Shown: in pieces, positions 3,439-28,523 of the stretch | Position numbering within the stretch: the stretch's first letter is position 1 | Layout of the letters: every line of letters begins with the position of its first letter | Assembly (NCBI GenBank): GCA_903887455.1 | Contig: CAISPT010000186.1 | Location: 1 to 41,253, forward strand | Length of the DNA stretch: 41,253 nucleotides | Direction of reading: 5' to 3' | Origin: an uncultured Opitutaceae bacterium | Lineage (GTDB): Bacteria; Verrucomicrobiota; Verrucomicrobiia; Opitutales; Opitutaceae | Notes under the pieces: model-generated | What the model was told of the DNA's origin: nothing | Databases searched by the model: none | The model's input: the letters and a program-made list of their open reading frames with translations, nothing else | Made by a program: the position numbers and the translations under genes

Positions 3439-5814
3439 TCAGGGCGGGCGCTGCTCGAGCACCGCGATGATCTGGCTGATCTGGTCGGTCACCGCCGGGT
3501 CCCCCTCGTGCGTCGAGATCCGCCGAGCCAGCGCGAGGTGCTCGAGGGCCTCGTCCGGCCGGCCAAGGGAGAGGAGCAGGCGGCTGAGCTTCCCCTCGAG
3601 CGCAGACGTCATGGGGCCGCTAGTTTCGGCCAGCGAAAGGCAGGCCGCCTCCTGCTCCGCCTCGCCGCGCTTCCCGTGGATTCGGGCGGCGCGCATGTTG
3701 TTGTCGAAGTTCTGGGGCTGGTCGGTCAGGGAGGACAGCGTCAGCGCGTCGGCCTCCTCGCCCCGTCCGGCCTTCTCGAGCAGCCCGACCAGGGCCTCAA
3801 GTGCCGCGCGGCTACCCGGGTTCGCGGCGAGGATGGAGCGGTACTGGCCCTCGGCCTCGGCTGCGTCGCCCGCAGCTTGCGCGAACTGGGCACGCGCGAT
3901 CCTCGGGGCCTCAAGGCCGGGCGATTCCGCGATCTCCCGGTCCAGGAAGGCGCGCCCGGCGGCGGTCTCCCCCGTCCGGGTGTAGAGGTCGGCGAAGGCG
4001 GGCGCCATGAGCGCCCGCTCGCCGGCAGTGCATGCGGAGGCGGTCTGCAGCAGGCGGCCCCTCGCCTCGTCGATCAGGCCGAGGCGCATGAGGAGCACCG
4101 CCTCGTCGGTCGCCAGAGTGAAGTCCCGTGGCTGGAGTGACTCGGCAAGCCTCAGGTCCGAGAGCGCCGAGGCCGGGTCGCCAAGGTCTGCGTCGACCCG
4201 CTGAGCGATCCTCGGGAGGTCGGGATTTCCGGGGTCGCGCGCCATCGCCGACTTGAGCACGGCCCTAGAGCGCACGAGCGCATTCGGATCCCGCGCAAGT
4301 GGAGCCGCGGCAGAAAACTCCGCGAGGAGGCGGGCCTGGTCCTCCGGGTAGGTGAGCTGGTGCGTGAACGGGGGGTGCTGGACGATGGCGCCGGCGGACT
4401 CCAGGAAGGCGTAGCGTTCATGGGGCGTGAAACCGACCGCCTCGGCGCAGGCCTGCGGATCGATCCACGCGTGCGCCTTGGCGCCTTCCGCGTCCAGCGT
4501 CTCGGCGATCGAGCCGGCCACGGCCCTGGCTAGCCTGTAGTTGCCCCCCAGGCTGAGGTGGACGTGCTCGACGAAGGAATCCCTTCCCGCGGGGGGAGCC
4601 GACGATGCGGGGTCCGAACCCAGAAGGCTTGCCACGTCGATCAGGGCGACCCCTCCTGCGGCCGACGTTGCCACGCGCCGGATGGCCTCGTTCACGGCCG
4701 GGTCCGGCCTGAAACGGAGGGCGTCCCAATGTTGCGCGGCAACGAGGTGTCTCCGCCCCTCCGCAAGGTCACCCTGGTCGAGGTAAAGGCGCCCCAGCAT
4801 GAATGCGGTGTCGGCGTAGTGGGGGTCGATGCGCTCCGCTTCAAGGAGGTCCCTCCTTGCGCGGTCCGACTCCCCCAGGAGCCATTCCCTACGCCCGCGG
4901 CTGTAGGCCGAGGTCCAGGCCGGAAGGTCTGCTGCGGGTAACCCCCTGCCATGAACGGAGACGAAGGGTGCGCTGTCCTTGATGTTCGAGGCAACGGTGC
5001 AGAGGATCGTCCGGGCCCCCGCGCCCTCGGCCTCGCCCACAATCGCCCGGAGATTGGCCTCGAAGTTCCTGTAGACGCCCGGGAGCCTGGGATCGTCCGC
5101 GTCCACGGTGCTGTTCACGAACATCTGCATCCCGCCCCATTCGGCCGAGGAGCGTTTTCCGCGCGCTAGGAACGCCGCGGCGCGGTTGGCGAGCTGGCCG
5201 ATCCGGGAGGCTTTCACGGCCATGCTAAGGCGGATGACCCACAGCGGCGGCATCTCCGAGAGGTACGCGCAGCCCGGGCCGTACGGCCCTACGACCTCGT
5301 TGTTGCCCATGTAGACGACCACGAAGTCCGGGGAGAGCTCCTTCAGCTGCCGGACGATCCGGTAGATCACGTGGGAGTTGATGGCGACGATCCCTGTGTT
5401 GAGAACCTCGAACTCGCGGCCGGGGTACCGGGCCCTAAGGAGGGCGCGAAGCTGAGGGGCGAAGCCGAATTGCGGTGCCGGCACGCCCTGGGCCGCGGAT
5501 TCCCCGAGGACGACGATGCGCACCGTGTTCGCCGGCTTGACCCTCGGGAAGCGGTAGTTGAGCGGCCTCAGATCGAAACCCGCCGGGAAATACAGGCTTG
5601 CGAACCGGGGGTTGCTCCGGAGGAAGCCGGGAGTCTCGTCCGGGATGGCAAATCCGGCGGGCTCTCCGAAGCCCGCCACGCGCAGGATGACCTCGGAGCA
5701 GGCTAGCAGCAGGGCTGGCGCGGCGACGAGCAAGAGGATCCGGTATACCAAGAGCCGCGTGTTCCCGATCGGCTTGTCCCGGGGTCCAGGGGAGGGGCTG
5801 GCGGTGCTTTTCAC
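3439..5814 (-). CDS. Membrane-anchored SGNH/GDSL hydrolase with C-terminal TPR repeats
   Basis: A 791-residue product from GTG. Residues about 21-41 form one hydrophobic anchor; 'LLLACSE' could alternatively be a lipobox. The SGNH hydrolase blocks follow: 'VVLGESAAQG' with the likely nucleophile Ser106, 'LNTGIVAINSH', 'VVYMGNNEVVGPYG' (an NNE variant of the usual GxND block), and 'EHVHLSLGGN' near residues 415-425 with the catalytic-type His. About eight tetratricopeptide-like units precede the last block and fill residues 500-790. SGNH enzymes cleave acyl or acetyl esters, often from sugars. Placement downstream of an esterase and glycosidases suggests de-esterification of a polysaccharide, which is inference. 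It is separated by 136 bases from the preceding esterase gene. Confidence 0.75.
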   Translation of the reverse strand: MKSTASPSPGPRDKPIGNTRLLVYRILLLVAAPALLLACSEVILRVAGFGEPAGFAIPDETPGFLRSNPRFASLYFPAGFDLRPLNYRFPRVKPANTVRIVVLGESAAQGVPAPQFGFAPQLRALLRARYPGREFEVLNTGIVAINSHVIYRIVRQLKELSPDFVVVYMGNNEVVGPYGPGCAYLSEMPPLWVIRLSMAVKASRIGQLANRAAAFLARGKRSSAEWGGMQMFVNSTVDADDPRLPGVYRNFEANLRAIVGEAEGAGARTILCTVASNIKDSAPFVSVHGRGLPAADLPAWTSAYSRGRREWLLGESDRARRDLLEAERIDPHYADTAFMLGRLYLDQGDLAEGRRHLVAAQHWDALRFRPDPAVNEAIRRVATSAAGGVALIDVASLLGSDPASSAPPAGRDSFVEHVHLSLGGNYRLARAVAGSIAETLDAEGAKAHAWIDPQACAEAVGFTPHERYAFLESAGAIVQHPPFTHQLTYPEDQARLLAEFSAAAPLARDPNALVRSRAVLKSAMARDPGNPDLPRIAQRVDADLGDPASALSDLRLAESLQPRDFTLATDEAVLLMRLGLIDEARGRLLQTASACTAGERALMAPAFADLYTRTGETAAGRAFLDREIAESPGLEAPRIARAQFAQAAGDAAEAEGQYRSILAANPGSRAALEALVGLLEKAGRGEEADALTLSSLTDQPQNFDNNMRAARIHGKRGEAEQEAACLSLAETSGPMTSALEGKLSRLLLSLGRPDEALEHLALARRISTHEGDPAVTDQISQIIAVLEQRPP

Positions 5815-5907
5815 GCTTGTGCCAAGGAGGTCGTGGGGGTCGGTGCGCCGCCGGCTGAGCCCGCGAACAGGCCCGGTGGACGAACGCGCCCGGATGCTGC
5901 CGGTCGC

Positions 5908-5936
5908 CGTCCGACCTGTCGATCCCTAGTCGGACG
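5908..5936 (-). other. Perfect 8-bp inverted repeat after the esterase gene
   Basis: CGTCCGAC (5908-5915) and GTCGGACG (5929-5936) are perfectly complementary around a 13-base loop. They lie 14 bases beyond the stop of the minus-strand esterase gene and upstream of the SGNH/TPR gene. There is no U-tract. It may act as a transcript-end or mRNA-processing hairpin. Confidence 0.35.
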
Positions 5937-5950
5937 CCCCGGCGTACGAT

Positions 5951-7120
5951 TCAGGGGCCCTTTGCCTGAGCCGTTGGCGCCGGGGTGGGTGGCACCGTCC
6001 TAGGTGGCGACCCCATGGCGCTCTTCTTCACCCGGTTCAGGTTCGCGGCGACGTCGATAGCGGCCTGGGTCTCGACCCCGGGCTTTCCAAGGAAGCCCAG
6101 GTCACGGAACCAGTCCATGAAGCGATCCTGCCATGTGCCGAAGGCGATGAAGCCGCGGTCCGTGATCCCCCCGGTGGAGGGGGGCTCGCCCGGCCGGACC
6201 TTGTCCCCCGGGTGGTGACCCCGGGCGTAAATGTGCATCTCCACGTTCGGCACGCCGTCATTGAGCATCGCCGTGAAGTACTCGTTCGCCCACACCGCGT
6301 GCATCCAGTCGCCCCAACCCGCGCAGGCGATGAATGCCGGCGGCATGTCGCGGGGGATCGTCGGGGTGCCACCGCGGGCGAAGGGCGAGGAGCCAGGATA
6401 GATGAGCCCCGAGAAATCCGGCCTCGAGGAGACCTTGGCGAGCGGGTTCGACGGGAGGTCGTTCCGTGCATCGAAGTCGGCCCACTGCAGGGTCGCCGCC
6501 GCCGCCAGCTCGGCACCCGCGGAGAAACCCATGATGCCGATCCGGGCGGGGTCCAGTTTCCACTCTTTTGCGTGGGCCCTCACGAGCTTGATTGCCTGGA
6601 GCGCGTCGTTCACGCCGTCGACCTTCGGGTCATACCCGTCGCTCTTGAGCCTGTTGCGCAGGATGACGGTGCTCACGCCGTAGTTGTAGAAGTAGTTGAC
6701 CTCGTCGGCGCCCTCGCCTCCGACATTGAGCGTCAGGTGGGCGCCGCCCGCGGCGAGGATGACCACGGCCCCCGTGTTGAGCTGATGGTTGCCAGGATGG
6801 AACTCGATCGACGGGTTATGGATGTGGATCACATAGCCGACCCGCTCCGGCTCGTAGTAATGGTACTCCTCGGGCTCGGACAACCTGTCCCGCCTGAGGT
6901 AGGAGGAGTCGGGGGAATAGAGTGGGATGATCACCCCCCCGGGGACGATCGGCTGGGGGACGTAGGGCCCGTCCGTCTTTGGGCCCGGTGCGGGAACGCC
7001 GACCGGGGCCGGGGCGGGCGGGAGGGCGGGGGGTTGGTCCGCAGCCGCCGATGACGCGTGCGCGAGCGCGAGGGCGAGCGCCGCCGCGATTAGGTCTCGG
7101 ATCCGGGGACGGGAATTCAT
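5951..7120 (-). CDS. Secreted alpha/beta-hydrolase esterase/lipase
   Basis: A 389-residue protein from ATG with a signal peptide of about 27 residues and a Pro/Ala-rich linker. The alpha/beta-hydrolase core shows 'VVILAAGGAHLTL' (oxyanion-hole region, in place of the HGGG of hormone-sensitive-lipase types) and the nucleophile elbow GFSAG with Ser200. It also shows 'SGLIYPGS' and a late 'MHIYARGHHPGD' that should hold the catalytic His. This order matches BD-FAE/acetyl-xylan-esterase-like enzymes that remove acetyl or feruloyl groups from plant polysaccharides. The C-terminus is Pro-rich. It lies 58 bases after the DUF1552 gene on the same strand, in a cluster with glycosidases. The exact ester substrate is not determined. 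Confidence 0.8.
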   Translation of the reverse strand: MNSRPRIRDLIAAALALALAHASSAAADQPPALPPAPAPVGVPAPGPKTDGPYVPQPIVPGGVIIPLYSPDSSYLRRDRLSEPEEYHYYEPERVGYVIHIHNPSIEFHPGNHQLNTGAVVILAAGGAHLTLNVGGEGADEVNYFYNYGVSTVILRNRLKSDGYDPKVDGVNDALQAIKLVRAHAKEWKLDPARIGIMGFSAGAELAAAATLQWADFDARNDLPSNPLAKVSSRPDFSGLIYPGSSPFARGGTPTIPRDMPPAFIACAGWGDWMHAVWANEYFTAMLNDGVPNVEMHIYARGHHPGDKVRPGEPPSTGGITDRGFIAFGTWQDRFMDWFRDLGFLGKPGVETQAAIDVAANLNRVKKSAMGSPPRTVPPTPAPTAQAKGP

Positions 7121-7178
7121 GGGTGCTGTTTTTCCGCGGCGCTATGGGGATTTCGGAGTCGTGAGCCGACGGGTGGTC

Positions 7179-8570
7179 CTAGACGTCTGCTAGGCGACCC
7201 GTGGAGTCGCCGAACCGCTCGAGTCCGGTGACCCCTGCTGTTTCGGCGAGGTTGAGGAAGAGGTTGGAGAGCGGCTTGCTGCCGTGCTGCACGAAGCGCC
7301 CGCCATGGAACGCGCCTCCTCCCGCCCCGGCGAGCAACACCGGCAAGTTCTCGTGGGTGTGGCGGTTGCCGTCGGCGTTGCCGCTGCCGTAGATGATGCG
7401 CGAGTTGTGGAGCAGGGAGTTGCCGTCGACATCCTGGATCGAGTCCATGCGCGCCAGGAAGCGCGAGAACTGCTCCACGTACCAGCGATCGATCTGGGCC
7501 ACCTTCTCGATCCGCTCCGGGTTGTTCTGGTGGTGGGACAGGTCGTGGTGGCCCTCGGTGATTCCAATCTCGCTGAATGAGCGGTTGTCGCCGTCGTGGC
7601 CAAGGACAAAGGTCGCGACCCGGGTCGAGTCGGTCTTGAACGCAAGGAGCATGATGTCGTACATGAGGTCGACGTACTCGACCTGCTTGGCCGGAATCCC
7701 GGCCGGGGTGGCCTCGTCCGGGTCGATATTTGGCCCGAACTTCTCCGCCTTCTGGATCCGCTTCTCGACCTCGCGGATCCCGGTGAGGTACTGGTCCAGC
7801 TTCTCCTGGTCTCGGACGGAGAGACGTTGCTGCATCGCCTTGGCGTCGCCCATCACGAAGTCCAGGACGCTCCTCCGGTCCCTCATCTGGCGCTGCGCGT
7901 TCTGCGCCCGTTCCCCGTGGGGCCCGGCGCCGAAGAGGCGCTCGAACGCGAGCCGAGGGTTGGATTCCGGGGTCATCGGTGTCGTGGGCGACTGCCAGGA
8001 TATGTTGTACTGGTAGGCGCACGAGTACCCCGAGTCGCAGTCGGACGCCCTCCGCGTCGCGTCGCAGCACAGCTCGATCGAGGGGAACCGAGTCAGGTGG
8101 CCGACATGGTTGGCAATCACCTGGTCAATGGAGACGCCCGCGCGGATGTCGGTGGCGCTCTTGTTGATCCTGACCCCGGTCAGGAATACGCTGTTCCCGC
8201 GCGCGTGGTCGCCTCCGCCGTCGTTGCCGGGGTTCGCGTTCGCGTGGGCCAGGCCCCCGAGGACCTGGACGTAGCGGCGCACCGGGTCGAGGGACTGCAG
8301 CGTGGGGCTCAGGTTCATGGCGGCGCCTGAGTCCGTGGGCCACCAGCGGCTCGGGATCGCGCCGTTCGGGAAGAACACGAAGGCCGTCCGGAGCGGGGCT
8401 CCGGTCGCCGTCGTCGCCAGGCGGGCGTCGGCCGCAGCGGCCAGCACCTTGGTCGGCAGGAGCGAGGTGAAGGCCGGGAGGGCCACGCAGGCCCCAATGC
8501 CCCGCAGGAAGTTTCGCCGGCTCATCTCGGCGCTGTGTCGCTCTCTTGCAAGTTCAGCGGGTGTCTTCAT
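7179..8570 (-). CDS. DUF1552 protein with Tat-type signal
   Basis: A 463-residue protein. The N-terminus carries a twin-arginine motif 'SRRNFLRGIG' followed by a hydrophobic stretch, so export through Tat is likely. The body matches DUF1552: 'AFVFFPNGAIPSRWWP', 'GGLAHANANPGNDGGGDHARGNSVFLTG', 'SIELCCDATRR', 'DLMYDIMLLAFKTDSTRVATFVLGHDG' and 'IIYGSGNADGNRHTHENLPVLLAG'. The His/Asp/Gly-rich patches recall the alkaline-phosphatase-like fold seen in the related DUF1501 family. Its start overlaps the end of the cytochrome gene by 17 bases, so the two are translationally coupled, as usual for this pair in Planctomycetes and Verrucomicrobia. Biochemical function of the family is unknown to me. Confidence 0.88.
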   Translation of the reverse strand: MKTPAELARERHSAEMSRRNFLRGIGACVALPAFTSLLPTKVLAAAADARLATTATGAPLRTAFVFFPNGAIPSRWWPTDSGAAMNLSPTLQSLDPVRRYVQVLGGLAHANANPGNDGGGDHARGNSVFLTGVRINKSATDIRAGVSIDQVIANHVGHLTRFPSIELCCDATRRASDCDSGYSCAYQYNISWQSPTTPMTPESNPRLAFERLFGAGPHGERAQNAQRQMRDRRSVLDFVMGDAKAMQQRLSVRDQEKLDQYLTGIREVEKRIQKAEKFGPNIDPDEATPAGIPAKQVEYVDLMYDIMLLAFKTDSTRVATFVLGHDGDNRSFSEIGITEGHHDLSHHQNNPERIEKVAQIDRWYVEQFSRFLARMDSIQDVDGNSLLHNSRIIYGSGNADGNRHTHENLPVLLAGAGGGAFHGGRFVQHGSKPLSNLFLNLAETAGVTGLERFGDSTGRLADV

Positions 8571-11202
8571 GGGGGTGCTCGTTGCTGGCGGTTAATGCCG
8601 GGGCGGCGTCGGGGGTCGTGTCGGCCAACTGCCGGTGCTGGGGGCCCCGGCGCTGCTGGAAAGGTGCGGAGTTAACTATCCCTTGCAAGAGCACGGAGGG
8701 TTTTCCTCCCGAGGACTCGAGCTCCTCGACCAGTCGGTCGACGGTCTCGACATCGTAATAGTCGAGTGTGCGCCCCAGGGCGTAGGTGAGCAGCTTCTCG
8801 GTCAGGCAGTAGTAGAAGTCGCGCAGGTGCTTGGTTGCCAGGATGTGCTTGAGCTCGCGCACGTTCGAGAAAGTCTCGCCCGTGATGAGCCTGCCGCTCG
8901 GGTCAATCGGCCGGTTGAGTTCCCCTTCGCGCCACATCCCCATCGCGTTGAAGTTCTCGAGTGCGAGGCCGAGAGGGTCCATGCGGCTGTGGCAGGAGGC
9001 GCAGGATTTGTTCGTCGCGTGGAGCGAGAGGTTCTCGCGCAGCGTCATCGTCCGGAGCTTCTCGGGGCTCGCGGCGTCCTCGAGGGCGGGGATGTTGGGC
9101 GGCGGCGGGGGCGGCCTCGTGCCGAGGATCGAGTCCAGGATGAAGACACCCCGCTTGACGGGGGACGTGCGCGTGGGGTTCGAGGTCACGGCGAGCACCG
9201 TTCCCTGGGTAATCACCCCGCCGCGGGGGCTGTCCGGGGGTAGAGTAACTTTTCTCATCTGGGGTCCGTTGACACCGGTGATCCCATAGTGCTTCGCGAG
9301 GCCCTCGTTAAGGAAGGTGTAGTCGCTCTCCACCAGCTCAGAGAGGCTCCTGTCCTCCCTGATGACGTAGGCGAACGTCATCTCGGTCTCCTTCCTCATC
9401 GCCTCGCGCAGGGCCGACGAGAGCTGGGGTTTGGGCATGCGGAACGTCTTAAAGAAGGTCTTCCGCGCCGAAGCGAACGAGGCTTGCTCGGCGGGCGTCC
9501 TCTTCTCCTCCGATATCCGGTTGATCCTCTTGAAGGTGTCGAACGCCTGCTCGACTGCCGGGTCCGGGTGCTCCCTCAGGAAGACGGAGAACGGGTTGAT
9601 CTGGACGTTCTGGATGTCCCGGGCCTGGAGCCATTGCCCGGTGAAGTTGCTCACGAACTCGGACGACCGCTTGTCTGCTAGCATCCTGCTGACGACCGAA
9701 GGGAGCTCGGCCCTAAGCCGGTCGGCCGAGGCGAGACGTATCAGCTCGTCGTCGGGCATCGATGACCAGAAGAAATACGAGAGGCGCGACGCCAGGGCGT
9801 ACTCGTCGATGTAGGGGTTCACCTGGCCGGGGCGAAGCGCCTCGACGTCCTCGTCCCTGAAGATGAATCGCGGCGACGCCATCACGGCGACCATCGCCTG
9901 GGCTATGCCCGCCTCGAATGTCGACCCGGGCTGCGCGGAGACCGCCTCCGACATCGAGACCAGGCGTGACACGGTCGGCTCGTCCACCGGCCGCCTGAAG
10001 GCCCGGGAGGCGAAAGCCCGGAGTATCTCGGCGGCGTATTTCCTCCGGCTCGCGGGCCAGAACGGCACCTTCTTGGGGAAGAACTTGGCGTAGCCGGCGG
10101 GCTGGACCCAGTAGGCCTTATCGAATGGGCCCCGGACCGTTACTTTGTCTAGGCGGAGCCTCAGGAGCCTCTTCTGCTCCTGGTCGGGTCCGATCGGCTG
10201 GACCTCGAGCGACAGTGTATGGGCTCCGGGAGCCCAAGTTTGGTCGAAGGAGAAGTCAAAGTCCTTGTCCGACTCGCGGACGAACTCCTGGCTGACGAGC
10301 GTCTGCCCGTCTATGCGTATCGTGAGCCTGCACCGGTTCAGGTCGAACTGGTCGTCGACGTAGCTCTCCACCGCCTTGAGGCTCACGCTCACCTGGTACC
10401 GTCCCGCGTGCTCGGCCTGGCAGCGGGCGGCCACCGTCGCAGCCGTATAATAGGAGAGGTCGAGCGCCTTTCCGGCCGCCTTGGGGCCGGGGTGCCTGAA
10501 GGCCGGCGCGGGCATGTCGGCCTGATCCGGGGCGTCGGTGGTCGCCGCGATGGTCTCGAACTGCCTTCCGTCGAGGACGCGCTCGGCCACCACCCGCGGC
10601 TGCGTCGGCACCGTCTCGCCGATTATCGTCTGGGCGGAGTCCAGGTAGCGCTCAAGGAGCATCGGCGAGATCGTTAACACGTCGCCGATGTTGTCGAAAC
10701 CCTGGCCCGTGTCGTCGGCGGGGAACTCCTTGAGGGTGTCGAATTCGGCGCCAACGAGGTCACGCACGGTGTTGCGGTACTCGACCCGGTTGAGCCGGCG
10801 GACCGTGACACGGCCGGGATCCGGGTTCGCGGGGTCCAGGGAGAAGGCCTGGAGCTTAATCCAGGACATGAGCCGTTTCACGTCCTCCGGGGGAACCCTG
10901 GGCTTATCGGCCGGCGGCATTATTCCGGTCCTGACGTTCTTCATCACTCTCCACCAGAGCGCGTGGTCCTGCACCTGCGCGTCCGTGCGGAAGTCGTCCA
11001 GGTCGATGCCCCCCTTGCTCGCCCCTCCGCCGTGGCAGTCGTAGCAATACTGGTCCAGCACCGGCTGGATCTCCCGGTTGAATGACTTAAGGGGCTCCGT
11101 GCCCGCCCATGCGCTGAGCGCCAGGCTAAGCGCGGTTGCGAGGGATCCGCATGCGGTCAACCCAGAGTAGGTTCTCCGAGGTTGGGGAGGATCGGATCGC
11201 AT
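8554..11202 (-). CDS. PSCyt-type diheme protein with DUF1587/1595/1592/1588/1585 domains
   Basis: An 882-residue exported protein. After a signal peptide (about residues 18-33) there is a cytochrome-c-like domain with the heme motif CYDCH (Cys53, Cys56, His57). The order of recognisable blocks is then DUF1587 ('VTVRRLNRVEYRNTVRDLVG'), a beta-rich insert, DUF1595, DUF1592 ('YALASRLSYFFWSSMPDDEL'), DUF1588 ('RGGVITQGTVLAVTSNPTRTSP') with a second heme motif CASCH near residue 730, and DUF1585 at the C-terminus ('LTYALGRTLDYYD'). These proteins are characteristic of Planctomycetes and Verrucomicrobia and are presumed periplasmic electron-transfer proteins. It starts 6 bases after the GH26 stop and overlaps DUF1552, suggesting that glycan hydrolysis and this redox protein are expressed together. 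Confidence 0.88.
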   Translation of the reverse strand: MRSDPPQPRRTYSGLTACGSLATALSLALSAWAGTEPLKSFNREIQPVLDQYCYDCHGGGASKGGIDLDDFRTDAQVQDHALWWRVMKNVRTGIMPPADKPRVPPEDVKRLMSWIKLQAFSLDPANPDPGRVTVRRLNRVEYRNTVRDLVGAEFDTLKEFPADDTGQGFDNIGDVLTISPMLLERYLDSAQTIIGETVPTQPRVVAERVLDGRQFETIAATTDAPDQADMPAPAFRHPGPKAAGKALDLSYYTAATVAARCQAEHAGRYQVSVSLKAVESYVDDQFDLNRCRLTIRIDGQTLVSQEFVRESDKDFDFSFDQTWAPGAHTLSLEVQPIGPDQEQKRLLRLRLDKVTVRGPFDKAYWVQPAGYAKFFPKKVPFWPASRRKYAAEILRAFASRAFRRPVDEPTVSRLVSMSEAVSAQPGSTFEAGIAQAMVAVMASPRFIFRDEDVEALRPGQVNPYIDEYALASRLSYFFWSSMPDDELIRLASADRLRAELPSVVSRMLADKRSSEFVSNFTGQWLQARDIQNVQINPFSVFLREHPDPAVEQAFDTFKRINRISEEKRTPAEQASFASARKTFFKTFRMPKPQLSSALREAMRKETEMTFAYVIREDRSLSELVESDYTFLNEGLAKHYGITGVNGPQMRKVTLPPDSPRGGVITQGTVLAVTSNPTRTSPVKRGVFILDSILGTRPPPPPPNIPALEDAASPEKLRTMTLRENLSLHATNKSCASCHSRMDPLGLALENFNAMGMWREGELNRPIDPSGRLITGETFSNVRELKHILATKHLRDFYYCLTEKLLTYALGRTLDYYDVETVDRLVEELESSGGKPSVLLQGIVNSAPFQQRRGPQHRQLADTTPDAAPALTASNEHPHEDTR

Positions 11203-11208
11203 GACGGG

Positions 11209-12348
11209 CTAACGCCTCTTGATCGTGTAAGACCCGTCGGCGGCGATCCGCACGTCATCCAGCGACAGGGTCCTCGGGTCCGCGTACAGGGCCTTGAGCT
11301 TCTCGGGATTGTCCCTCGAAATGGCGCCGAAGGGTGGCCAGGGCATGAACCACGCCCATTTCGGCTGACGCGAGAGGATCTCCGGGCTCGGGGGCTCGCC
11401 GACCTCGCCCATCGCCACGGGCTTTCCCGCGGCCAGGGCGACCAAGTCGTCGTAGTTCTTCTGCTCATCCGCCCCCTGGTCCGCCTTCTTGTGGTAGATG
11501 TCGGCTGCGAGCACGTCCACGTAGCTGGCCCCGGGCCAGAACTCCGAGTACGGGAAGGCCTCGTCGCCCGGGTTCGAGCGCGGGGCGTTCGTGTCCCAGA
11601 CCCAGATGAGGTTATTGAGGTGATGGTGGTTCACCATGTAGTCATACATCATCACCCAGAGCTTTTTGAAGCCATCGTCGCCCTTCTGGTCGCACCACCA
11701 AAACCAGACCCCATTCATCTCATGGTAGGGTCGCCAGAGGACCGGCACCTTGGCGTCCTGGAGCTGTCCGAGGTAGCCGGAAATCACGTCGACCTGCTCC
11801 TTCCACGCCTTGTTCGACGCCGAGCCGTCGGTCGTCAGCTCCTTCCATTCCTCCTTGGAGGGCCGGCGGTCCATCGCCCAGATCTGCTTCCCGTCGCACG
11901 TGTCCCCGAATCCCGGGGGAGGCGCGTGCCACATGAGCGTGATAATGTGTCCGGCCCTGTACGCCTTTATGGCGGCGTCGACCATGCGCTGGCGCGCCTC
12001 CGGCGGCTTCACGTCGACAAAATACAGGGGTTCCATCGAATGCGTGAGGTTGATCGGCCCGCAGTGCTGGAACTTCTCCGGCTCGGTTCCCGAGTAGGCG
12101 AAGCTGAAGTCCGAGCCCCAGATGATCGGGCTCTTGCCGGTGATCGCCCGGACGATGTCCGTGTACTTGGAGCCAGCGGTCGCGAAATTGTGCTGACCGG
12201 TGAGGATGTAGTGACCCTGCACCTCCGTGAGGAAGGACAGGAGCTTCCTCGCCTCCGGCGTGGCGTTCGCGTTCACCGGCTCCGCGTGGGAGCGGACGGG
12301 CAGCGCTAGCACGAGGGTGGCAAACAGGAGGGTGCGGAGGATGATCAT
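11209..12348 (-). CDS. Secreted GH26 beta-mannanase-like glycoside hydrolase
   Basis: A 379-residue protein from ATG at 12348, chosen because it begins directly with a signal peptide (MIILRTLLFATLVLALPVRS); an in-frame start 17 codons upstream gives no better leader. GH26 hallmarks are 'GHYILTGQHNF', 'HIITLMWHAPPPGFGDTC', the acid/base block 'WRPYHEMNGVWFWW' with Glu210, and 'PVAMGEVGEP' with the likely nucleophile Glu315. The fold is a retaining (beta/alpha)8 barrel; the usual activity is endo-beta-1,4-mannanase, releasing mannobiose or longer manno-oligosaccharides. The 2-epimerase and GH130 genes further right could process its product. It sits 133 bases after the large glycosidase gene and 6 bases before the cytochrome gene. 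Confidence 0.88.
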   Translation of the reverse strand: MIILRTLLFATLVLALPVRSHAEPVNANATPEARKLLSFLTEVQGHYILTGQHNFATAGSKYTDIVRAITGKSPIIWGSDFSFAYSGTEPEKFQHCGPINLTHSMEPLYFVDVKPPEARQRMVDAAIKAYRAGHIITLMWHAPPPGFGDTCDGKQIWAMDRRPSKEEWKELTTDGSASNKAWKEQVDVISGYLGQLQDAKVPVLWRPYHEMNGVWFWWCDQKGDDGFKKLWVMMYDYMVNHHHLNNLIWVWDTNAPRSNPGDEAFPYSEFWPGASYVDVLAADIYHKKADQGADEQKNYDDLVALAAGKPVAMGEVGEPPSPEILSRQPKWAWFMPWPPFGAISRDNPEKLKALYADPRTLSLDDVRIAADGSYTIKRR

Positions 12349-12459
12349 CGGGGTGGGGTGGGCGTCGCTGGCGAAAGACAGACGCACGGGGTGGAGCAAC
12401 GTTCCGAAATTTCCTACCTAGAATCGTTTCGGCGGATCCGACCGTTTTCAAATGGTTTT

Positions 12460-12478
12460 TCCGGGCGGCCGGCCCGGA
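12460..12478 (-). other. GC-rich 7-bp hairpin after the large glycosidase gene
   Basis: TCCGGGC (12460-12466) and GCCCGGA (12472-12478) pair perfectly around GGCCG, starting three bases after the glycosidase stop codon on the minus strand. The bases that follow on the minus strand are A-rich rather than U-rich, so it is not a standard terminator. It could stabilise the 3' end or reduce read-through into the GH26 gene. Confidence 0.35.
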
Positions 12479-12481
12479 TCC

Positions 12482-15193
12482 TCACCGCAGGTGGGCCACC
12501 ACGTTTGCGGCGCCTTCGAAGCCCTCTATCCTCACGCGGCCGGTGGTCGGATCATAGCTTCCGCCCTCGACCCCCGCGATCCTGGTTCCCGGCGGGCACG
12601 GCAGGCGGAGCTCGACCACCCGAGGCCCGTGGTCGGAGCGGCACTCGATCGTGGCTTTCACCAGACCCTTGCCAGCCACGGACTCGACCTTGAGGGAGAG
12701 CGTCCCGAAGTAGGAGGACACGTTCTCCAGCTCGATTGTCTTTCCAGAGGAAAGGTAGTCGCTCGGCACGCCGTCCAGGAGCTCGAGGGTGTCGCCTCGC
12801 TCCATGTAGAGCATCCAACGGGTCTCCATGAGGAACCATGCCTCCTCATGCGTCTTGTGAGGGCTCTGGTGGAACAGATGCTCCCAGAAGGTGTACGTCT
12901 CCCTGTCGGCCAGGCTCGCCACCGTGCCGTAGTAAGCCTTCAGGAAGGGCTTCACCTCGCCGCGCCTGAGGTGGAGCCAGTCGTGCCGGCTGTAGTAGGG
13001 CTGGCTGAAGGCGACATTGCGGCTCGTCATAAGCTCGCTGTGCGCCTCGAGGAGGAAAGTGGTCACCTGCTCGTCGGGGCCCAGCACTTCCTGGAACGCC
13101 AGGTAGAGGGGACCTAGCAGCGAGTCGCGGGCCGCCTCCGAACCGTGCGTGAACCACTCCCCGCCATCGGCGTGGAGCATGAGCGCGCCCCGCGCGGGCA
13201 CCCAGGGCGGCAGGGTGGGGACCCACGTGCCGTCACCGACGGGGACCACCGGCGAGCGTGCTAGGGCCTCGGCGACGGCAGTGCGGATATCCCTCCTCAT
13301 GCCTTCAGCCTCCTGCCGCCAGCGCGCGGACTCGGCGGGATCGACCTTCGCGAGCATCTCCGCGACCCGGCTCACTCCCAGGTAATGGTACCCGTTCAGC
13401 ATGAACGAGCGGAACGGATCCTCGGGGTCGGCGGTCTTGCCCTCCAGCATGCCGTAGCCCTTTCCCCGAAGGTCCTCCCGCAGGTTCGCCTTGCGCCACG
13501 CCTGGACGTATTCGCATGCCTTGACGACCTTGGGCTCGATCCGCCGGACCCAGGCGTCGTCGCGCGTATACCGGTAGTGTTCGCCCATGCTCCAAAGTGC
13601 CGAGCCCGTCTCGAGCATGTAACCGAAGAAATTCTGCATGAATCCGGACGGCTGCTGGCGGTCCAGGAAATAGTCGAGCGCCCGCTCGGCCTCTTTGTGC
13701 CACCCCATTGAGTCCATGAATTGGATGATGGGCGAGCTTTCGGATCCGATGGGGCCGTAGATCCCGATCGTCGGGGCGAGGGTTCCATGGGGCTCGAGGC
13801 CGTAGGTGATCAGGTCGAGGTGCAGGAGGCCCGCCTGGACCATTTCCTGGATGCGGGGCTCCGGAAGCCTTACCCGGGCGGCGGAGGCGAGCTTCGCCCT
13901 CCAGAAGTCCCTGACCTCGTCATGGCGCCGGTCGATGTCCTGGGCGGCGAGGCGGCGCGCCCGGTCCTCCGGCAGCGGGCGGTGCGGGAGCATGAACTCG
14001 AAAACCGCAGTCTCCCCGGGGCCGAGCAGGATCGCCATCTCCTGCTGCGCTATTGGCGCACCGTTCAGCCGAGATACGGCGAACACCCGACCCGAGGACG
14101 CGTACCGGGAGAACCCGGTCGAGGCCTCGAAGGACCAGGCCGAGGATTTCATGTCCAGGGGGACCGGGTTCTTGAAGAACGCATAGCGCGGGGCCTTTGA
14201 GGCGTTGCGGGCCTCGGCCCTGAAATAGAGTACGGTCTCCTCCGGCCTGCTCTCCCAAGCAGCTGCCATCGACTCGTACTGGCGCGTCTGCTCCTGGGTG
14301 AACATGAGCCCCAGGCTGAAGTGGTCCGCAATGGGAACGGGTGTCCCCTCAAGCGATCCCTCCTGGAGCGGCCCCACCTCGGGCGCTGCGAATGCGGTGA
14401 CCGCGTAGCAGATGTTGTCGTCTACAAGTGTTCCGTGGAGGATCGGGAGTACACCGTCCTCCAGGCGCCTCCTGATGTCGTCCCCGGGACCCCATCCCCT
14501 GCCCGCGAGCACCGAGTAGCGCACAGGTTTGCCCCCGTTCTCGGGGAGCGACGCCTCGACCCCGTGGTCGCGCGGCTGGATCCAGTCGAGCCTCTCGCCG
14601 ACGGCGAAGATCCGGATGTCGCGGCTGAGCCCGAGCCATGTCTCGCACGGGTTGTTGCGCTCGTGGGCGGCAGCGTCGTCGAACGTCTCCTCGGGCTCGG
14701 CCTCGATCTCGGCTAGCTTCGACCGGAGACCCTCAGCGGCTGCGTCCTTAAGAATCTCCCGGTAGGTCCGAGTGTCCCCGGGCTCCGTCACGGCCACGCC
14801 GTAGGAGGGAATAAGGATCGGGAACCGGCGATCGACGTCCTTCAGGAAGAAGGTGAACGGCGAGCGCGTCCCCCCGATGGAGACCAGGGACGACCGGCTT
14901 CCGTAGGCCGACGTGTCGCCGTCGACAAGGAGGGTGACCCTCGAGGGGACACTGGCGTCGAGGGTGAAGGAATCGGCTCCGGCCATCCCGTTGACCGATA
15001 CGAGCCTGCCTCTGTCGACCGCCACGCTCCCTTTCTGTCCTGCGTCCGCGAAGAGCACGGCGACCCCCCGCTCGGTTGCGGGCAGCGCCTGCGGGAGCAG
15101 GATGGCCAGGGCAAGAGTGGCGAGTCCCTTTAAGGGTGGCACGGGGCGGTGCCGGGGGGTCATTCCGAACGGGTACCGGGGGTTACTCGCCAT
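12482..15193 (-). CDS. Large secreted six-hairpin (alpha/alpha)6-type glycosidase, family uncertain
   Basis: A 903-residue protein; an alternative start at 15163 puts the signal peptide ('LKGLATLALAILLPQALPA') nearer the N-terminus. Residues 40-440 are beta-rich. Residues about 450-790 form helix pairs typical of a six-hairpin barrel: 'MVQAGLLHLDLITYGLEPHG', 'PIIQFMDSMGWHKEAERALDYFLDRQQ', 'GSALWSMGEHYRYTRDDAWVRRI', 'HDWLHLRRGEVKPFLKAYYGTVA'. A C-terminal beta domain ends in 'GRVRIEGFEGAANVVAHLR'. This architecture occurs in alpha-L-rhamnosidases, trehalases and GH63/GH15-type enzymes; I cannot fix the family. Next to rhamnose uptake genes and 24 bases behind the AraC-type regulator, an alpha-L-rhamnosidase-like role is attractive but is inference. 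Confidence 0.7.
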   Translation of the reverse strand: MASNPRYPFGMTPRHRPVPPLKGLATLALAILLPQALPATERGVAVLFADAGQKGSVAVDRGRLVSVNGMAGADSFTLDASVPSRVTLLVDGDTSAYGSRSSLVSIGGTRSPFTFFLKDVDRRFPILIPSYGVAVTEPGDTRTYREILKDAAAEGLRSKLAEIEAEPEETFDDAAAHERNNPCETWLGLSRDIRIFAVGERLDWIQPRDHGVEASLPENGGKPVRYSVLAGRGWGPGDDIRRRLEDGVLPILHGTLVDDNICYAVTAFAAPEVGPLQEGSLEGTPVPIADHFSLGLMFTQEQTRQYESMAAAWESRPEETVLYFRAEARNASKAPRYAFFKNPVPLDMKSSAWSFEASTGFSRYASSGRVFAVSRLNGAPIAQQEMAILLGPGETAVFEFMLPHRPLPEDRARRLAAQDIDRRHDEVRDFWRAKLASAARVRLPEPRIQEMVQAGLLHLDLITYGLEPHGTLAPTIGIYGPIGSESSPIIQFMDSMGWHKEAERALDYFLDRQQPSGFMQNFFGYMLETGSALWSMGEHYRYTRDDAWVRRIEPKVVKACEYVQAWRKANLREDLRGKGYGMLEGKTADPEDPFRSFMLNGYHYLGVSRVAEMLAKVDPAESARWRQEAEGMRRDIRTAVAEALARSPVVPVGDGTWVPTLPPWVPARGALMLHADGGEWFTHGSEAARDSLLGPLYLAFQEVLGPDEQVTTFLLEAHSELMTSRNVAFSQPYYSRHDWLHLRRGEVKPFLKAYYGTVASLADRETYTFWEHLFHQSPHKTHEEAWFLMETRWMLYMERGDTLELLDGVPSDYLSSGKTIELENVSSYFGTLSLKVESVAGKGLVKATIECRSDHGPRVVELRLPCPPGTRIAGVEGGSYDPTTGRVRIEGFEGAANVVAHLR

Positions 15194-15217
15194 GGCAACG
15201 ATTTCGGACGGCCGGTG

Positions 15218-16114
15218 CTACCTTTCGGGCCTACGACGACGCCACCGGCTCGGGGCGATCCCAAACTGAGACTTGAAGGCCGACGAGAGGTGGAACGCGG
15301 AGCTAAATCCCAGGCGCTCCGCGACCTGCTTTAGAGAATCGTCGCTTGAGCCCAGCAGACGCTGCGCCCGCTGCATCCGGATCCGAAGCAGGTACTGGCG
15401 CGGGGAGATCCCCGTGCGCAGCCTAAATTCCCTGCGGAAATACGAGTAGGCGACGCCTAGCGAACGGGCGAGCGCGGGCATGCGGACCGACCGCGTGTCT
15501 CCCTCCTCCATCATGCGCTTAGCCTGGTCGACCGCGGCGACAATTGATCGTGGCCGGCCCTTCTCGTTGCGCGAGGCATGGAGGAGCGAAAGGACGCCGA
15601 GCGCCCGCGCTGCGAGCTCGGAGGTGTCCCCCGGCGGCTCGGTCCACATGAGCCTGTGGAGTGCGTTAATCCTCGCCTCGAACTCGAGGCCACGGCCGAC
15701 GGCGATAACGGGGCGCTCCTCGGAGAAGATGCCTCCGCGGATCATTCCGTCGACCAGGGGGCCGCCGATCTCCACCCAGAGTTCGACCCAGCCCGTGGAC
15801 CTGAGCGGTCTGTAGCGGTGCCAAGCGCCGGGAAAAAGAAGGAGCGCCGTGCCGGCGCCCACCTCGACTCGTCCCATCGCCCTAGTCTCAAATTCCCCGC
15901 GCCCGTCCGCGATGTAGACGGCCTGGAACGCACCGAGCACGCGGCCCCGCTCCCAGGTGAAGCTGTGGTCGCCGGGGTGGCCCCTCGGCGGGTACGGCCT
16001 CCGAGGAAGGGCGGTAAAGCGGCCCCCTCCGGTGACAACAGCGCCCCACGCGTCTGCCCCGGGGGTCGCCACGCTGTACCGGAAAAAGTCGGGGGACGGC
16101 GACGGCTGTGACAT
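15218..16114 (-). CDS. AraC-family transcriptional regulator
   Basis: A 298-residue protein from ATG at 16114; the frame is open further upstream but only through the intergenic region and antisense to rhaA. The N-terminal ~150 residues form a cupin-like sugar-sensing domain ('HPGDHSFTWERGRVLGAFQAVYIADGRGEFET', 'AGTALLLFPGAWHRYRP'). The C-terminal ~100 residues hold two helix-turn-helix units: 'MPALARSLGVAYSYFRREFR' and 'VAERLGFSSAFHLSSAFKSQ', followed by 'GIAPSRWR'. It is divergent from rhaA and 24 bases upstream of the large glycosidase gene, so it probably controls rhamnose uptake and the glycosidase operon. L-rhamnose as inducer is inferred from position only. Confidence 0.88.
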   Translation of the reverse strand: MSQPSPSPDFFRYSVATPGADAWGAVVTGGGRFTALPRRPYPPRGHPGDHSFTWERGRVLGAFQAVYIADGRGEFETRAMGRVEVGAGTALLLFPGAWHRYRPLRSTGWVELWVEIGGPLVDGMIRGGIFSEERPVIAVGRGLEFEARINALHRLMWTEPPGDTSELAARALGVLSLLHASRNEKGRPRSIVAAVDQAKRMMEEGDTRSVRMPALARSLGVAYSYFRREFRLRTGISPRQYLLRIRMQRAQRLLGSSDDSLKQVAERLGFSSAFHLSSAFKSQFGIAPSRWRRRRPER

Positions 16115-16263
16115 GCTCAAAAAGTGTATGCCAAGGGTCAAATTGTCGATTCCCAAGGCCCTGGCTAAAGCGTATGCTGCGGCGCCCCCAGGAAAGGAAG
16201 CCCCAGTCAATTGTTGTATTACCGGAGCTTCCCTCCGACCCGTAACCCAGGACCCCGCCTGCC
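16115..16263. promoter_or_regulatory. Divergent control region between the AraC regulator and rhaA
   Basis: These 149 bases must hold promoters for both directions. CCAAGG occurs as a direct repeat at 16131-16136 and 16153-16158, exactly 22 bases (about two helical turns) apart, as is common for AraC-type half-sites. GTATGC is also repeated at 16126-16131 and 16172-16177. An inverted pair GGAAGC (16196-16201) / GCTTCC (16227-16232) flanks an AT-rich segment nearer rhaA. No clear sigma70 boxes were found. The operator role is inferred from spacing and context. Confidence 0.4.
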
Positions 16264-17538
16264 ATGCCGACCCGAAAGAACCTCCGCGCCGCCTACCGCC
16301 TCGCCCGTGCCTCCTACCGCGACGTCGGGGTCGACACTGAGACGGCCATAGAGAAGGCACTGTCAGTTCCACTCTCCCTGCATTGCTGGCAGGCCGACGA
16401 CGTCCGCGGATTGGAGAGCCGGACCGGGGCCGTAGACTCGGGCGGTATCATGGCCACGGGCGGCTATCCCGGCCGGGCGCGAAACGGCGATGAGATGCGC
16501 GCGGACCTCGACCTCGTGCTCTCGCTGCTTCCCGGACGTCAGCGCCTCAACCTCCATGCGTTCTACGCCGAGACGGGGGGGGCAGCCGTGGACCGCGACG
16601 CAATAGAGCCTGAGCACTTTGCCCGCTGGCTTTCGTGGGCAAAGTCCCGGCGGATCGGCTTGGACTTCAACCCCACGTATTTTGCGCACCCGCTGGCTGC
16701 TTCTGGCTTCACGCTCTCACACGCGGATCCTGCGGTCCGCAGGTTCTGGATCGCCCACGCCCGTGCCTGCCGCCGGATCGCACAGCATTTCGCGAGGGCC
16801 ACGGGCACGCCGAGCGTCATCAACCACTGGGTGCCGGACGGGTCAAAGGACAGCCCGGCCGACCGGTGGGCACCCCGTCGGCGCCTCGCGGAGTCCTACG
16901 ATGCCATCTTCCGCGACAGGGCGGTCGACCGGGAGCTTTGCGTCGACGCCGTGGAAGGGAAGCTCTTCGGCTTGGGAAGCGAGGACTACGTGGTGGGCTC
17001 GCAGGAGTTCTATTCTTCCTACGCGCTGAAGCACGGGCTGGTGCCTTGCCTGGACCTTGGCCACTACCATCCGACGGAGTCCGTCGCGGACAAGATTTCG
17101 GCCCTTATGCAGTTCCACAAGAGGGTACTTCTCCACACCAGCCGCCCCGTGCGTTGGGACAGCGATCACGTCGTCATCCTGGACGATGCTGTTCGCTCCC
17201 TCTTCCTTGAGATCGCCCGCGGTGACGCCTGGGACAGGGTCTTCGTGGCGCTCGACTTCTTCGACGCCTCGATCAACCGGATCGCGGCATACGTGATTGG
17301 GGCCCGGGCGACGCGCGAGGGGATTCTGCTTGGTCTCCTGGATCCTTCCGCCCGGCTCCGCGCGGCCGAGCTTGCAGGGCACGGCCACGAAAAACTTGCC
17401 CTCATGGAGCACGCAAAGGCGCTTCCCTGGGGCGCCGTCTGGGACGAGCTCTGCGACCGCGGGGGCGTCCCCGTCGGCGCCGATTGGCTTCGGGCCGTCG
17501 CCCGCCACGAGAGGGACGTCCTTTCCGCACGCGGATAG
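16264..17538 (+). CDS. rhaA: L-rhamnose isomerase
   Basis: A 424-residue protein from ATG, of usual length for RhaA. It converts L-rhamnose to L-rhamnulose in the cytoplasm. Family blocks are present in order: 'GGIMATGGYPGRARNGDEMR', 'LNLHAFYAE', 'GLDFNPTYFAHPLA', 'SVINHWVPDGSKD', 'GKLFGLGSEDYVVGSQEFY', 'LDLGHYHPTESVADKIS' and 'LHTSRPVRWDSDHVV', which supply the metal-binding Glu, Asp and His residues of the xylose-isomerase-like barrel. It is divergent from an AraC-type regulator and followed by rhaT after 118 bases. The next pathway enzymes, rhamnulokinase and rhamnulose-1-phosphate aldolase, are not in this window. Confidence 0.95.
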   Translation: MPTRKNLRAAYRLARASYRDVGVDTETAIEKALSVPLSLHCWQADDVRGLESRTGAVDSGGIMATGGYPGRARNGDEMRADLDLVLSLLPGRQRLNLHAFYAETGGAAVDRDAIEPEHFARWLSWAKSRRIGLDFNPTYFAHPLAASGFTLSHADPAVRRFWIAHARACRRIAQHFARATGTPSVINHWVPDGSKDSPADRWAPRRRLAESYDAIFRDRAVDRELCVDAVEGKLFGLGSEDYVVGSQEFYSSYALKHGLVPCLDLGHYHPTESVADKISALMQFHKRVLLHTSRPVRWDSDHVVILDDAVRSLFLEIARGDAWDRVFVALDFFDASINRIAAYVIGARATREGILLGLLDPSARLRAAELAGHGHEKLALMEHAKALPWGAVWDELCDRGGVPVGADWLRAVARHERDVLSARG

Positions 17539-17656: not shown

Positions 17657-18793
17657 ATGATCCCCAATCCGTTTCTCGGCGTCGTCTTCCATTGGCTAGG
17701 GGGGCTCGCCTCGGGTTCCTTCTACGTACCCTACAAGGGCGTCCGCAAGTGGTCCTGGGAAACCTACTGGCTGGTCGGCGGATTCTTCTCTTGGATCATC
17801 TGCCCGTGGACGCTCGCCTTCGTCCTCACGAAGGACCTGCCGGGCGTTCTCCACCAGCAGTCCGCGAGCACGCTCTGGTGGACCTACTTCTTCGGTGCCC
17901 TCTGGGGGTTCGGTGGTCTGACCTTCGGCCTGACCATGCGCTACCTCGGCATGTCCCTCGGCATGGGCGTCGCGCTCGGATACTGCGCGGCCTTCGGGAC
18001 CCTGCTGCCCCCGGTATTCAAGTCCTTCATCGCCTCGATCCCGGTGCCGGAGACGCTCGGACAGATCGCGTCAAGCCTGCCGGGACAAATCACGCTGGCG
18101 GGAGTGGGGGTGTGCCTGCTGGGGATAGGGATCGCCGCCATCGCGGGGCTCACCAAGGAGCGCGAGATGCCGGTCGAGGAGAAGAAGAAGGCGATCGCCG
18201 AGTTCAACTTCAGGAAGGGCGTGCTGGTCGCGACCTTCTCCGGAATCATGAGCGCGTGCTTCGCCTTCGCACTCACGGCGGGCAACCCCATCGGGGCGGC
18301 CAGCCTGGCGGCCGGCACAACGACCATCTGGACGGGCCTGCCGAAGCTTGTCGTTGTTCTCCTTGGAGGATTCACGACCAACTTCGTGTGGTGCGCCATC
18401 CTCAACCTTAGGAACCGCACGGGCTACCAGTACCTTGCCGCACGGATCCGCCCGGAACACCAGCCTGAGGGCGCGCCTGCCGGAGCAGACCTCTCCGTGC
18501 CCGTCCTAAGGAACTACCTGTTCTCGGCCCTTGCGGGCACCACCTGGTACTTCCAGTTCTTCTTCTACACGATGGGCGAGACCCAGATGGGCAAGTTCGC
18601 CTTTGCCTCGTGGACCCTGCACATGGCGAGCATCATCATCTTCTCGACCATGTGGGGATGGATCTTCCACGAGTGGAAGGGTTCAAGCAGGAAGGCGCAC
18701 CTGTTGATCACCGGCGGGATCGCCACGCTCATCCTATCCACGGTGGTCATTGGCTTTGGCACCTACCTGAAGGCGGGCGCCGCGGGTCACTGA
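17657..18793 (+). CDS. rhaT: L-rhamnose/H+ symporter
   Basis: A 378-residue inner-membrane protein with about ten transmembrane segments, the usual RhaT size. Diagnostic stretches include 'GGLASGSFYVPYKGVRKWSWETYWLVGG', 'WGFGGLTFGLTMRYLGMSLGMGVALGYCAAFGTLLPP', 'FRKGVLVATFSGIMSACFAFAL' and 'ALAGTTWYFQFFFYTMGETQMG'. It imports L-rhamnose together with a proton. Together with rhaA it forms a rhamnose uptake-and-isomerisation pair, probably under the divergent AraC-type regulator. The 118-base gap from rhaA has no strong terminator, so co-transcription is likely. Confidence 0.93.
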   Translation: MIPNPFLGVVFHWLGGLASGSFYVPYKGVRKWSWETYWLVGGFFSWIICPWTLAFVLTKDLPGVLHQQSASTLWWTYFFGALWGFGGLTFGLTMRYLGMSLGMGVALGYCAAFGTLLPPVFKSFIASIPVPETLGQIASSLPGQITLAGVGVCLLGIGIAAIAGLTKEREMPVEEKKKAIAEFNFRKGVLVATFSGIMSACFAFALTAGNPIGAASLAAGTTTIWTGLPKLVVVLLGGFTTNFVWCAILNLRNRTGYQYLAARIRPEHQPEGAPAGADLSVPVLRNYLFSALAGTTWYFQFFFYTMGETQMGKFAFASWTLHMASIIIFSTMWGWIFHEWKGSSRKAHLLITGGIATLILSTVVIGFGTYLKAGAAGH

Positions 18794-26964: not shown

Positions 26965-27184
26965 CTTTAATTCGTGCCGGCCAGGTCAACCCGGGTATTC
27001 GACGGGTGTAAAAGCAGAGGCTTGGAGGTCAACAGGTTATGATCGCATGCCGGTTTCCCGTACGGGGGATTTGGCAGCCCTTCTGCGCAAACTTTGGCAA
27101 TGTATGCGCAGGCTGGCGGCTAGACACGGGGCGTCCGTTTTGGGAGATTTTCGGGGAGCCTGCGCCTCCGCGGGCCCCCTTACC

Positions 27185-28399: not shown

Positions 28400-28408
28400 C
28401 GGCCCCGC

Positions 28409-28430
28409 CTCTTCCAAAGAGCCCTTTTTT
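28409..28430 (+). terminator. Weak intrinsic-terminator-like hairpin
   Basis: CTCTT (28409-28413) and AAGAG (28417-28421) pair around CCA, and CCC plus six T residues follow. It starts ten bases after the phosphofructokinase stop, an appropriate place, but the stem has only five pairs with few G-C, so termination may be partial. Confidence 0.35.
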
Positions 28431-28523
28431 CCTGAGGACGCGGCGACAAGGAGTGACAACGGGCCGCGGAGGCGTCATCCAGTTCGTTCCCAGGGACAAG
28501 AATCCCCACACCCCTCGCCCGCG

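Follow-up and report, generated by a model that had tools for sequence, protein, structure and literature searches.

The PSCyt and PSD domains, whose first description in Rhodopirellula baltica is cited by He et al., 2017 (PMC5615132), are found with DUF1501 or DUF1552 partner proteins in many copies in some genomes of Planctomycetota and Verrucomicrobiota. They are without known function according to that study and to the literature that we searched, which agrees with an earlier note on this DNA stating that the DUF1592/DUF1552 pair has no known biochemical role. The pairing of the cytochrome with DUF1552 and its carbohydrate-gene neighbourhood have already been described in the same work, where sulfatase and GH genes were noted close to PSCyt/PSD genes, and where the density of cytochrome genes drops as the density of GH genes climbs (r = -0.62), which is the opposite of a simple co-occurrence of the two. 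Our study concerns a pair of this kind in a window of 41,253 nucleotides from an uncultured Opitutaceae bacterium, whose genome contains one DUF1552 gene, as part of one DUF1552/PSCyt3 pair, and four DUF1501 matches.

The pair is part of a row of six genes on the minus strand, which encode an AraC-family regulator, a 903-residue glycosidase-like protein, a GH26 enzyme, a diheme PSCyt3-type protein, a Tat-type DUF1552 protein and a BD-FAE-type esterase, all residing at the positions and with the spacings that had been claimed for them before. The measured junctions are gaps of 24 bp between the AraC and the 903-residue gene, of 82 bp between the latter and GH26 and of 6 bp between GH26 and PSCyt, an overlap of 17 bp between PSCyt and DUF1552, and a gap of 58 bp preceding the esterase. 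As judged from these spacings, the run likely constitutes a single co-transcribed operon. A scan of positions 5700-16500 returned no promoter-like match and terminator-like matches at chance level. The same order, including the 6-bp gap and the 17-bp overlap, recurs in a second species of the genus with proteins that are 74-91% identical, and the arrangement is thus not a product of chance. All five genes that were tested between the window and this sister species are under purifying selection, with dN/dS values of 0.13-0.16 for the esterase, PSCyt, GH26 and 903-residue genes, and of 0.065 for DUF1552, which at 91% identity is the most constrained among them.

The properties of the surrounding genes are reflected in their sequences. 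The regulator (15218..16114, minus strand), whose start at 16114 aligns with a TTG start in locus L001, matches HTH_18 (E 1.5e-22) and AraC_binding (E 4.3e-11), and the genes rhaA (16264-17538) and rhaT (17657-18793) are divergent from it. Both adjoin the run in the window and in the sister species only, and a rhamnose link was dropped since they are absent beside other copies of the 903-residue gene. The 903-residue protein (12482..15193, minus strand) is a putative secreted glycosidase, termed distantly GH95-like from its homologues, which are found in Opitutaceae and relatives at 48-74% identity and six out of ten of which show weak matches to the GH95 catalytic domain (best E 0.0032). The window protein has no Pfam match of its own, a PDB profile search provided no family assignment, and no hint of a substrate was found among 49 neighbour genes at eight homologous loci. 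The GH26 product (11209..12399, minus strand; Pfam E 7.5e-53) is a probable secreted endo-beta-mannanase, in which His 225-Glu 226 and Glu 332 fit the acid/base and nucleophile motifs of the family, with the catalytic glutamate pair being present; among solved chains, GH26A 6q75 is the nearest match (E 2.4e-91), followed by further GH26 mannanases. At the other end of the run, the BD-FAE/alpha-beta hydrolase esterase (5951..7120, minus strand; BD-FAE E 1.2e-10, Abhydrolase_3 E 2e-9) carries the motif GFSAG at 198 and partly resembles the pectin acetylesterase PaeX and the acetylxylan esterase AxeA1, under their cut-offs, and it is probably a secreted carbohydrate esterase. Secretion of the enzymes of the run is read from their N-terminal sequences alone, and no TonB receptor gene was seen in the run.

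In the cytochrome (8554..11202, minus strand), all six PSCyt and PSD Pfam domains are found above their cut-offs in one protein, with the order PSCyt1-PSD3-(CBM-like)-PSD5-PSD4-PSCyt3-PSD2. It contains exactly two CXXCH motifs, as do 50 out of 50 homologues, which form the heme c sites CYDCH at residues 53-57 (11032..11046, minus strand; Cys 53, Cys 56 and His 57 invariant) and CASCH at residues 734-738 (8989..9003, minus strand; Cys 734, Cys 737 and His 738 invariant). In the structure model of the protein (pLDDT 88.6), residues 203-361 (10120..10596, minus strand) are predicted to fold into a CBM35/CBM6/CBM36-like beta-sandwich, with VIA-align Z values of 10-11 to these modules and to the mannan-binding module of Man5C, which suggests that the cytochrome holds a built-in sugar-binding module that Pfam does not detect. 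This insert is present in 50 out of 50 homologues at lengths of 132-239 residues, and it is the most variable segment of the cytochrome (29% identity compared to 39-64% elsewhere), as expected for a substrate-specific binder. Folds of this type are also able to bind ligands other than carbohydrate. The fold search with the cytochrome listed only the CBM-like fold and barely tested the remaining domains, and a sequence search of solved structures with both members of the pair revealed nothing significant for function.

The DUF1552 (HXXSHH) protein (7179..8570, minus strand; Pfam E 1e-107) carries a Tat-type signal with the twin-arginine motif RRNFL. An RR-x-F-L-type motif is present in 75 of 77 DUF1552 sequences, which fits the insertion of a cofactor in the cytoplasm. 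The structure model (pLDDT 88.5) suggests an alkaline-phosphatase-superfamily fold, with VIA Z values of 15-17 (top 16.9) over 240-270 residues to nucleotide pyrophosphatases, sulfatases and PafA, and of at least 8 for 423 of the 534 chains compared; Foldseek against viral models gave no useful match. Four histidines (His 122, His 342, His 346 and His 404) are invariant in all 77 sequences, the first of which is located nine residues ahead of a Thr-Gly motif, a spacing equal to that of the catalytic Cys of sulfatases and of an invariant His of DUF1501. His 122 takes the place of the Ser, Thr or Cys nucleophile with which the active-site helix of the superfamily begins and which is absent throughout (77/77), and, in the sequence register, neither the strand-1 Asp nor the SDH/SDN motif (Asp-His/Asn after the penultimate strand) is conserved. 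The protein could still be a superfamily member with a metal-dependent hydrolase or transferase activity that removes a sulfate, phosphate or other ester from a glycan, in which case the cytochrome would serve a structural, docking or sensing role instead of supplying catalysis with electrons. Such an activity would be consistent with the predicted fold, which resembles phosphodiesterases and sulfatases most closely, with a histidine at the nucleophile position that could form a covalent intermediate, and with the esterases and deacetylases that often adjoin the pair in related loci. We nevertheless consider it doubtful, since the canonical nucleophile is missing, since the strand-1 Asp and the Asp-His/Asn are not conserved in the sequence register and since a hydrolase would have no need of the diheme protein that is its near-constant partner.

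The distribution of the pair bears on its relation to carbohydrates. Cytochrome and DUF1552 genes are adjacent in 76 of 84 relatives from Verrucomicrobiota, Planctomycetota, Acidobacteriota and Armatimonadota, and the two frequently overlap by 4 bp. In most loci from Acidobacteriota, the next gene after the pair belongs to a 21-member cluster with weak similarity to inosine-uridine nucleoside hydrolases. The earlier note had stated that co-expression with GH26 and an esterase would link the pair to extracytoplasmic polysaccharide processing and had proposed a survey of gene neighbourhoods. In this survey, GH26 was found near the pair at 1 of 80 related loci and at none of the 40 loci examined phylum-wide, and the leading downstream families (from 80 related and 72 phylum-wide downstream genes) include no recurrent GH family. 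A general association with GH26 or glycosidases is thus rejected, and the placement of GH26 and another glycosidase beside the pair is specific to two species. The association with esterases holds for window-like loci, where the 80 downstream genes include 10 of PF00756, five BD-FAE, three polysaccharide deacetylases and two GDSL proteins, with the recurrent esterase/deacetylase loci including members of Acidobacteriota and Armatimonadota, but it is not supported phylum-wide (3/72 downstream genes). Since the phylum-wide neighbours resemble background, it is there the CBM-like module alone that points to carbohydrates. What stands of the proposed link to polysaccharides is the preservation of the run in one sister species and the module modelled in the cytochrome, but not a general GH26 association. 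It could be argued that the pair serves a general respiratory or stress function with no tie to carbohydrates and that it owes its place among the glycan genes here to a chance arrangement of the genome, as would be in line with the random-looking neighbours, the restriction of the full run to two species, the absence of the pair from 342 of 388 Verrucomicrobiota genomes and the listing of a Rhodopirellula baltica DUF1552 gene in the overview-section table of a transcriptome study on stress (PMC2754498). However, the 6-bp and 17-bp junctions and the purifying selection that the two species have in common, the predicted CBM-like module in every cytochrome homologue and the downstream recurrence of esterases and deacetylases in window-like loci, including those of Acidobacteriota and Armatimonadota, argue against it, which leaves this explanation similarly questionable.

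The known genes of mannan utilisation, GH26, an AGE-type 2-epimerase (28524-29744) and a GH130 phosphorylase (29741-31024), are all present in the window and their block order is likewise kept in the sister species, with the difference that GH26 is here located more than 15 kb off, inside the AraC run that also contains the DUF1552/PSCyt3 pair. A congener contains the GH26 gene (70%) and lacks the DUF1552 gene, illustrating that mannan use does not need the pair. That the pair is an accessory passenger, of no consequence for the pathway, in an ordinary operon for mannan/rhamnose utilisation, as might be concluded from the match of the three genes to the known mannan-disaccharide pathway and from the congener, whose GH26 adjoins the same phosphofructokinase gene without the pair, is highly improbable, since a passenger would not be the most tightly constrained of the five genes.

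We favour a reading, with a probability of roughly 40%, in which DUF1552 and PSCyt3 form a self-contained periplasmic redox module acting on carbohydrates that was recruited here into a mannan/rhamnose operon. The diheme PSCyt3 protein would dock on a glycan or oligosaccharide via its embedded CBM35/6-like module, and the Tat-exported DUF1552 protein, which has the invariant His in place of the nucleophile and three further invariant histidines, would be the catalytic partner and probably work with a transition metal. Electrons would travel by way of the two hemes between the catalytic site and the respiratory chain, by which the pair would oxidise sugar units, with a reductive modification being less likely; an oxidative step is thus what we hypothesise. 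In the window and the sister species, the pair would have been placed in an AraC-controlled operon with a GH26 mannanase, a GH95-like glycosidase and a deacylating esterase, which adjoins genes for rhamnose uptake and isomerisation and lies 15 kb from the mannan-disaccharide pathway. If the oxidative reading is true, the pair would attack or prepare polysaccharides in an undescribed manner that uses respiratory electron transfer. With the modelled CBM-like module and histidine-substituted phosphatase fold, its function is now open to specific experiments and an oxidative role directly testable, for which the window offers a compact case since the genome contains one DUF1552/PSCyt3 pair, which likely shares an operon with a gene for a probable mannanase.

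Compared to the PSCyt3-PSD/DUF1552 pairs previously described in Verrucomicrobia and Planctomycetes (PMC5615132), the window pair shows the same set of PSCyt and PSD Pfam domains and the conserved adjacent gene, but it resides in a run that also includes GH26, a GH95-like protein and an esterase. New in this study are the CBM-like module modelled in the cytochrome, the predicted fold of DUF1552 with a histidine at the nucleophile position and the esterase or deacetylase that often follows the pair in window-like loci. The module shares with CBM35, CBM6 and CBM36 the predicted beta-sandwich fold and the conserved GxY ... DG ... GxH residues, whereas it is embedded between PSD3 and PSD5 and its identity to them is low (about 8-19%). 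Similarly, DUF1552 resembles type I sulfatases and NPP-type phosphodiesterases in its modelled fold, in the position of the nucleophile helix and in the Thr-Gly motif, but it has an invariant His for their catalytic Cys, Ser or Thr, the usual metal ligands are not conserved in its sequence and its cytochrome partner is near-constant. A close parallel is provided by PSCyt2-PSD1 (DUF1549/DUF1553) and DUF1501, where a PSCyt1-bearing cytochrome likewise resides beside a Tat-type protein from the same fold family. DUF1501 is a homologue of DUF1552 (hhalign probability 97, E 8e-11) with a histidine at the position of His 122, and the cytochromes have an N-terminal region in common (E 1.4e-12), whereas their other domains differ and an acidic residue retained in DUF1501 is not kept in DUF1552. 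By sequence, both thus appear as two parallel pairs of one design. It is unlikely, yet conceivable, that DUF1552 and DUF1501 together define a new class of redox metalloenzymes, with an alkaline phosphatase fold and a His for the nucleophile, which would oxidise carbohydrates with a dedicated multidomain, sugar-binding cytochrome c as the electron acceptor, in which case they would provide a route of electron transfer apart from those of LPMOs, cellobiose dehydrogenase and PQQ enzymes.

All six genes of the minus-strand run described in the earlier note, encoding an AraC regulator, a 903-residue protein, GH26, a PSCyt3-type cytochrome that is diheme by motif, DUF1552 and a BD-FAE-type esterase, were confirmed in place, as were the 6 bp between the end of the GH26 gene and the cytochrome gene and the 17-bp overlap of the latter with the DUF1552 gene, and we infer that the run constitutes an operon. 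The assembly holding the window (Opitutaceae, judged by its closest named relatives; 3.3 Mb, 94% complete) contains single copies of DUF1552 and PSD4, both within the run, and a second GH26 copy outside of it. A single further species of the genus (L001, a stretch also labelled G006) shares the entire run, flanked by divergent rhaA and rhaT and with junctions of the same 6 and 17 bp. Purifying selection is reflected in the dN/dS values between both species: DUF1552 has 0.065, and the esterase, the cytochrome, GH26 and the 903-residue protein have 0.13-0.16. A third congener (G004) retains the cytochrome, DUF1552 and esterase genes with the glycosidases absent, and no DUF1552 gene was found in a fourth (G003), whose GH26 (70%) sits near a phosphofructokinase gene that is located at 27 kb in the window. 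The operon arrangement thus looks recent and lineage-specific. The gene at 3439-5814, 136 bp past the esterase gene, encodes a protein that begins with a weak GDSL-lipase-like domain and has TPR repeats in its C-terminal part; the sister species retains it (72%), likewise downstream of the run. Elsewhere in the window, a single frame (20112-21152) fuses a GNAT acetyltransferase to a VanY-type D-Ala-D-Ala carboxypeptidase, with a similar one in the sister species (L232, 61%), and two adjacent proteins of about 1210 residues with FG-GAP-like repeats (31021-38335; the second with a Pfam-confirmed ASPIC/UnbV match), which have homologues in congeners, are perhaps a tandem duplication.

Among 80 loci collected by similarity to the window's DUF1552, with members in Verrucomicrobiota, Acidobacteriota and Armatimonadota, 76 of the 84 DUF1552 copies have a cytochrome gene immediately before them; in several of the remaining eight, the locus is at a contig end or the cytochrome gene is truncated. 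Gene calls in relatives relied on length and GC3, which misplaced some short genes. Esterases and deacetylases contribute 20 family matches among the 80 downstream genes (PF00756, 10; BD-FAE, 5; polysaccharide deacetylase, 3; GDSL, 2), and none of these belongs to the leading families upstream or at greater distance. Since no recurring partner exceeded background in 40 loci drawn from across Verrucomicrobiota, compared with 20 control stretches of the same genomes, the esterase link is a property of the window's subfamily. The suggested association of the pair with esterases and GH26 thus persists for esterases in window-like loci but not for GH26, found near the pair in 1 of 80 loci. Glycosidases were rejected as its general partner on family tallies that cover the leading families and may miss rare glycosidases near the pair. 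In most Acidobacteriota loci (L055-L080), the gene after DUF1552, usually no more than about 10 bp away, belongs to a 21-member cluster with weak similarity to inosine-uridine nucleoside hydrolases and is a conserved, unexplained partner.

The glycan is likely a mannan, because GH26 is accompanied, 15-17 kb away, by an AGE-type 2-epimerase and a GH130 phosphorylase, a known pathway combination. The consecutive phosphofructokinase, epimerase and phosphorylase genes (27047-31024), probably a mannan-disaccharide pathway, are syntenic in the sister species, and most congeners contain a close GH130 relative. The divergent rhaA and rhaT and the C-terminal half of the AraC regulator, which resembles RhaS among other regulators, hint at rhamnose; no rhamnose genes were found beside other copies of the 903-residue gene. 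Close to the AraC start, the araC-rhaA intergenic region (16100-16264) contains a conserved block, possibly an AraC-type operator, in which two CCAAGG elements are spaced by about 22 bp in the window and are imperfect in L001. The 903-residue protein (12482-15193) matches no Pfam family; weak GH95 catalytic-domain matches in 6 of 10 homologues are compatible with its earlier designation as glycosidase but do not prove it. Its family, strongly conserved in Opitutaceae and relatives (about 54% identity across genera) without a Pfam entry, is possibly a new glycoside hydrolase family.

PSCyt3 genes are conservedly paired with a family reported as unknown in function, PSCyt genes lie close to sulfatase and glycoside hydrolase genes, and some PSCyt proteins contain carbohydrate-binding domains (He et al. 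2017, PMC5615132). In the cytochrome model (pLDDT 88.6), residues 203-361 are predicted to adopt a CBM35/6/36-like fold (Z 10-11), which was missed by the Pfam search; the segment is the least conserved part of the protein and present in 50 of 50 homologues. The DUF1552 model (pLDDT 88.5) matches alkaline-phosphatase-superfamily structures (Z up to 16.9), a predicted fold. H122, D149, D237, D254, H342, H346 and H404 are invariant in 77 sequences at identities down to 26%, and the putative cluster of the histidines among them is read from sequence. An RR-x-F-L-type motif in 75 of these 77 sequences supports Tat export across phyla. In our best-supported proposal, with a probability of about 0.4, DUF1552 would be a Tat-exported metalloprotein whose partner is a diheme cytochrome that docks on sugar, the simplest joint role being that of a carbohydrate oxidoreductase, for which we infer the metal, the electron flow and the substrate. 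We found no paper on the DUF1552 fold, its histidine substitution or the universal embedded CBM-like module in a search outside most subscription journals, which is not proof of novelty.

H122 is located nine residues ahead of a Thr-Gly motif (eight in 12 of 77 sequences by alignment), the position that in sulfatases is occupied by the catalytic cysteine, and DUF1501, a homologue of DUF1552, contains an invariant histidine at the same spacing. In light of this homology and of the N-terminal region common to the cytochromes of both systems, there are thus two parallel pairs, in each of which a heme protein is joined by a protein of the same fold family that carries the histidine substitution.
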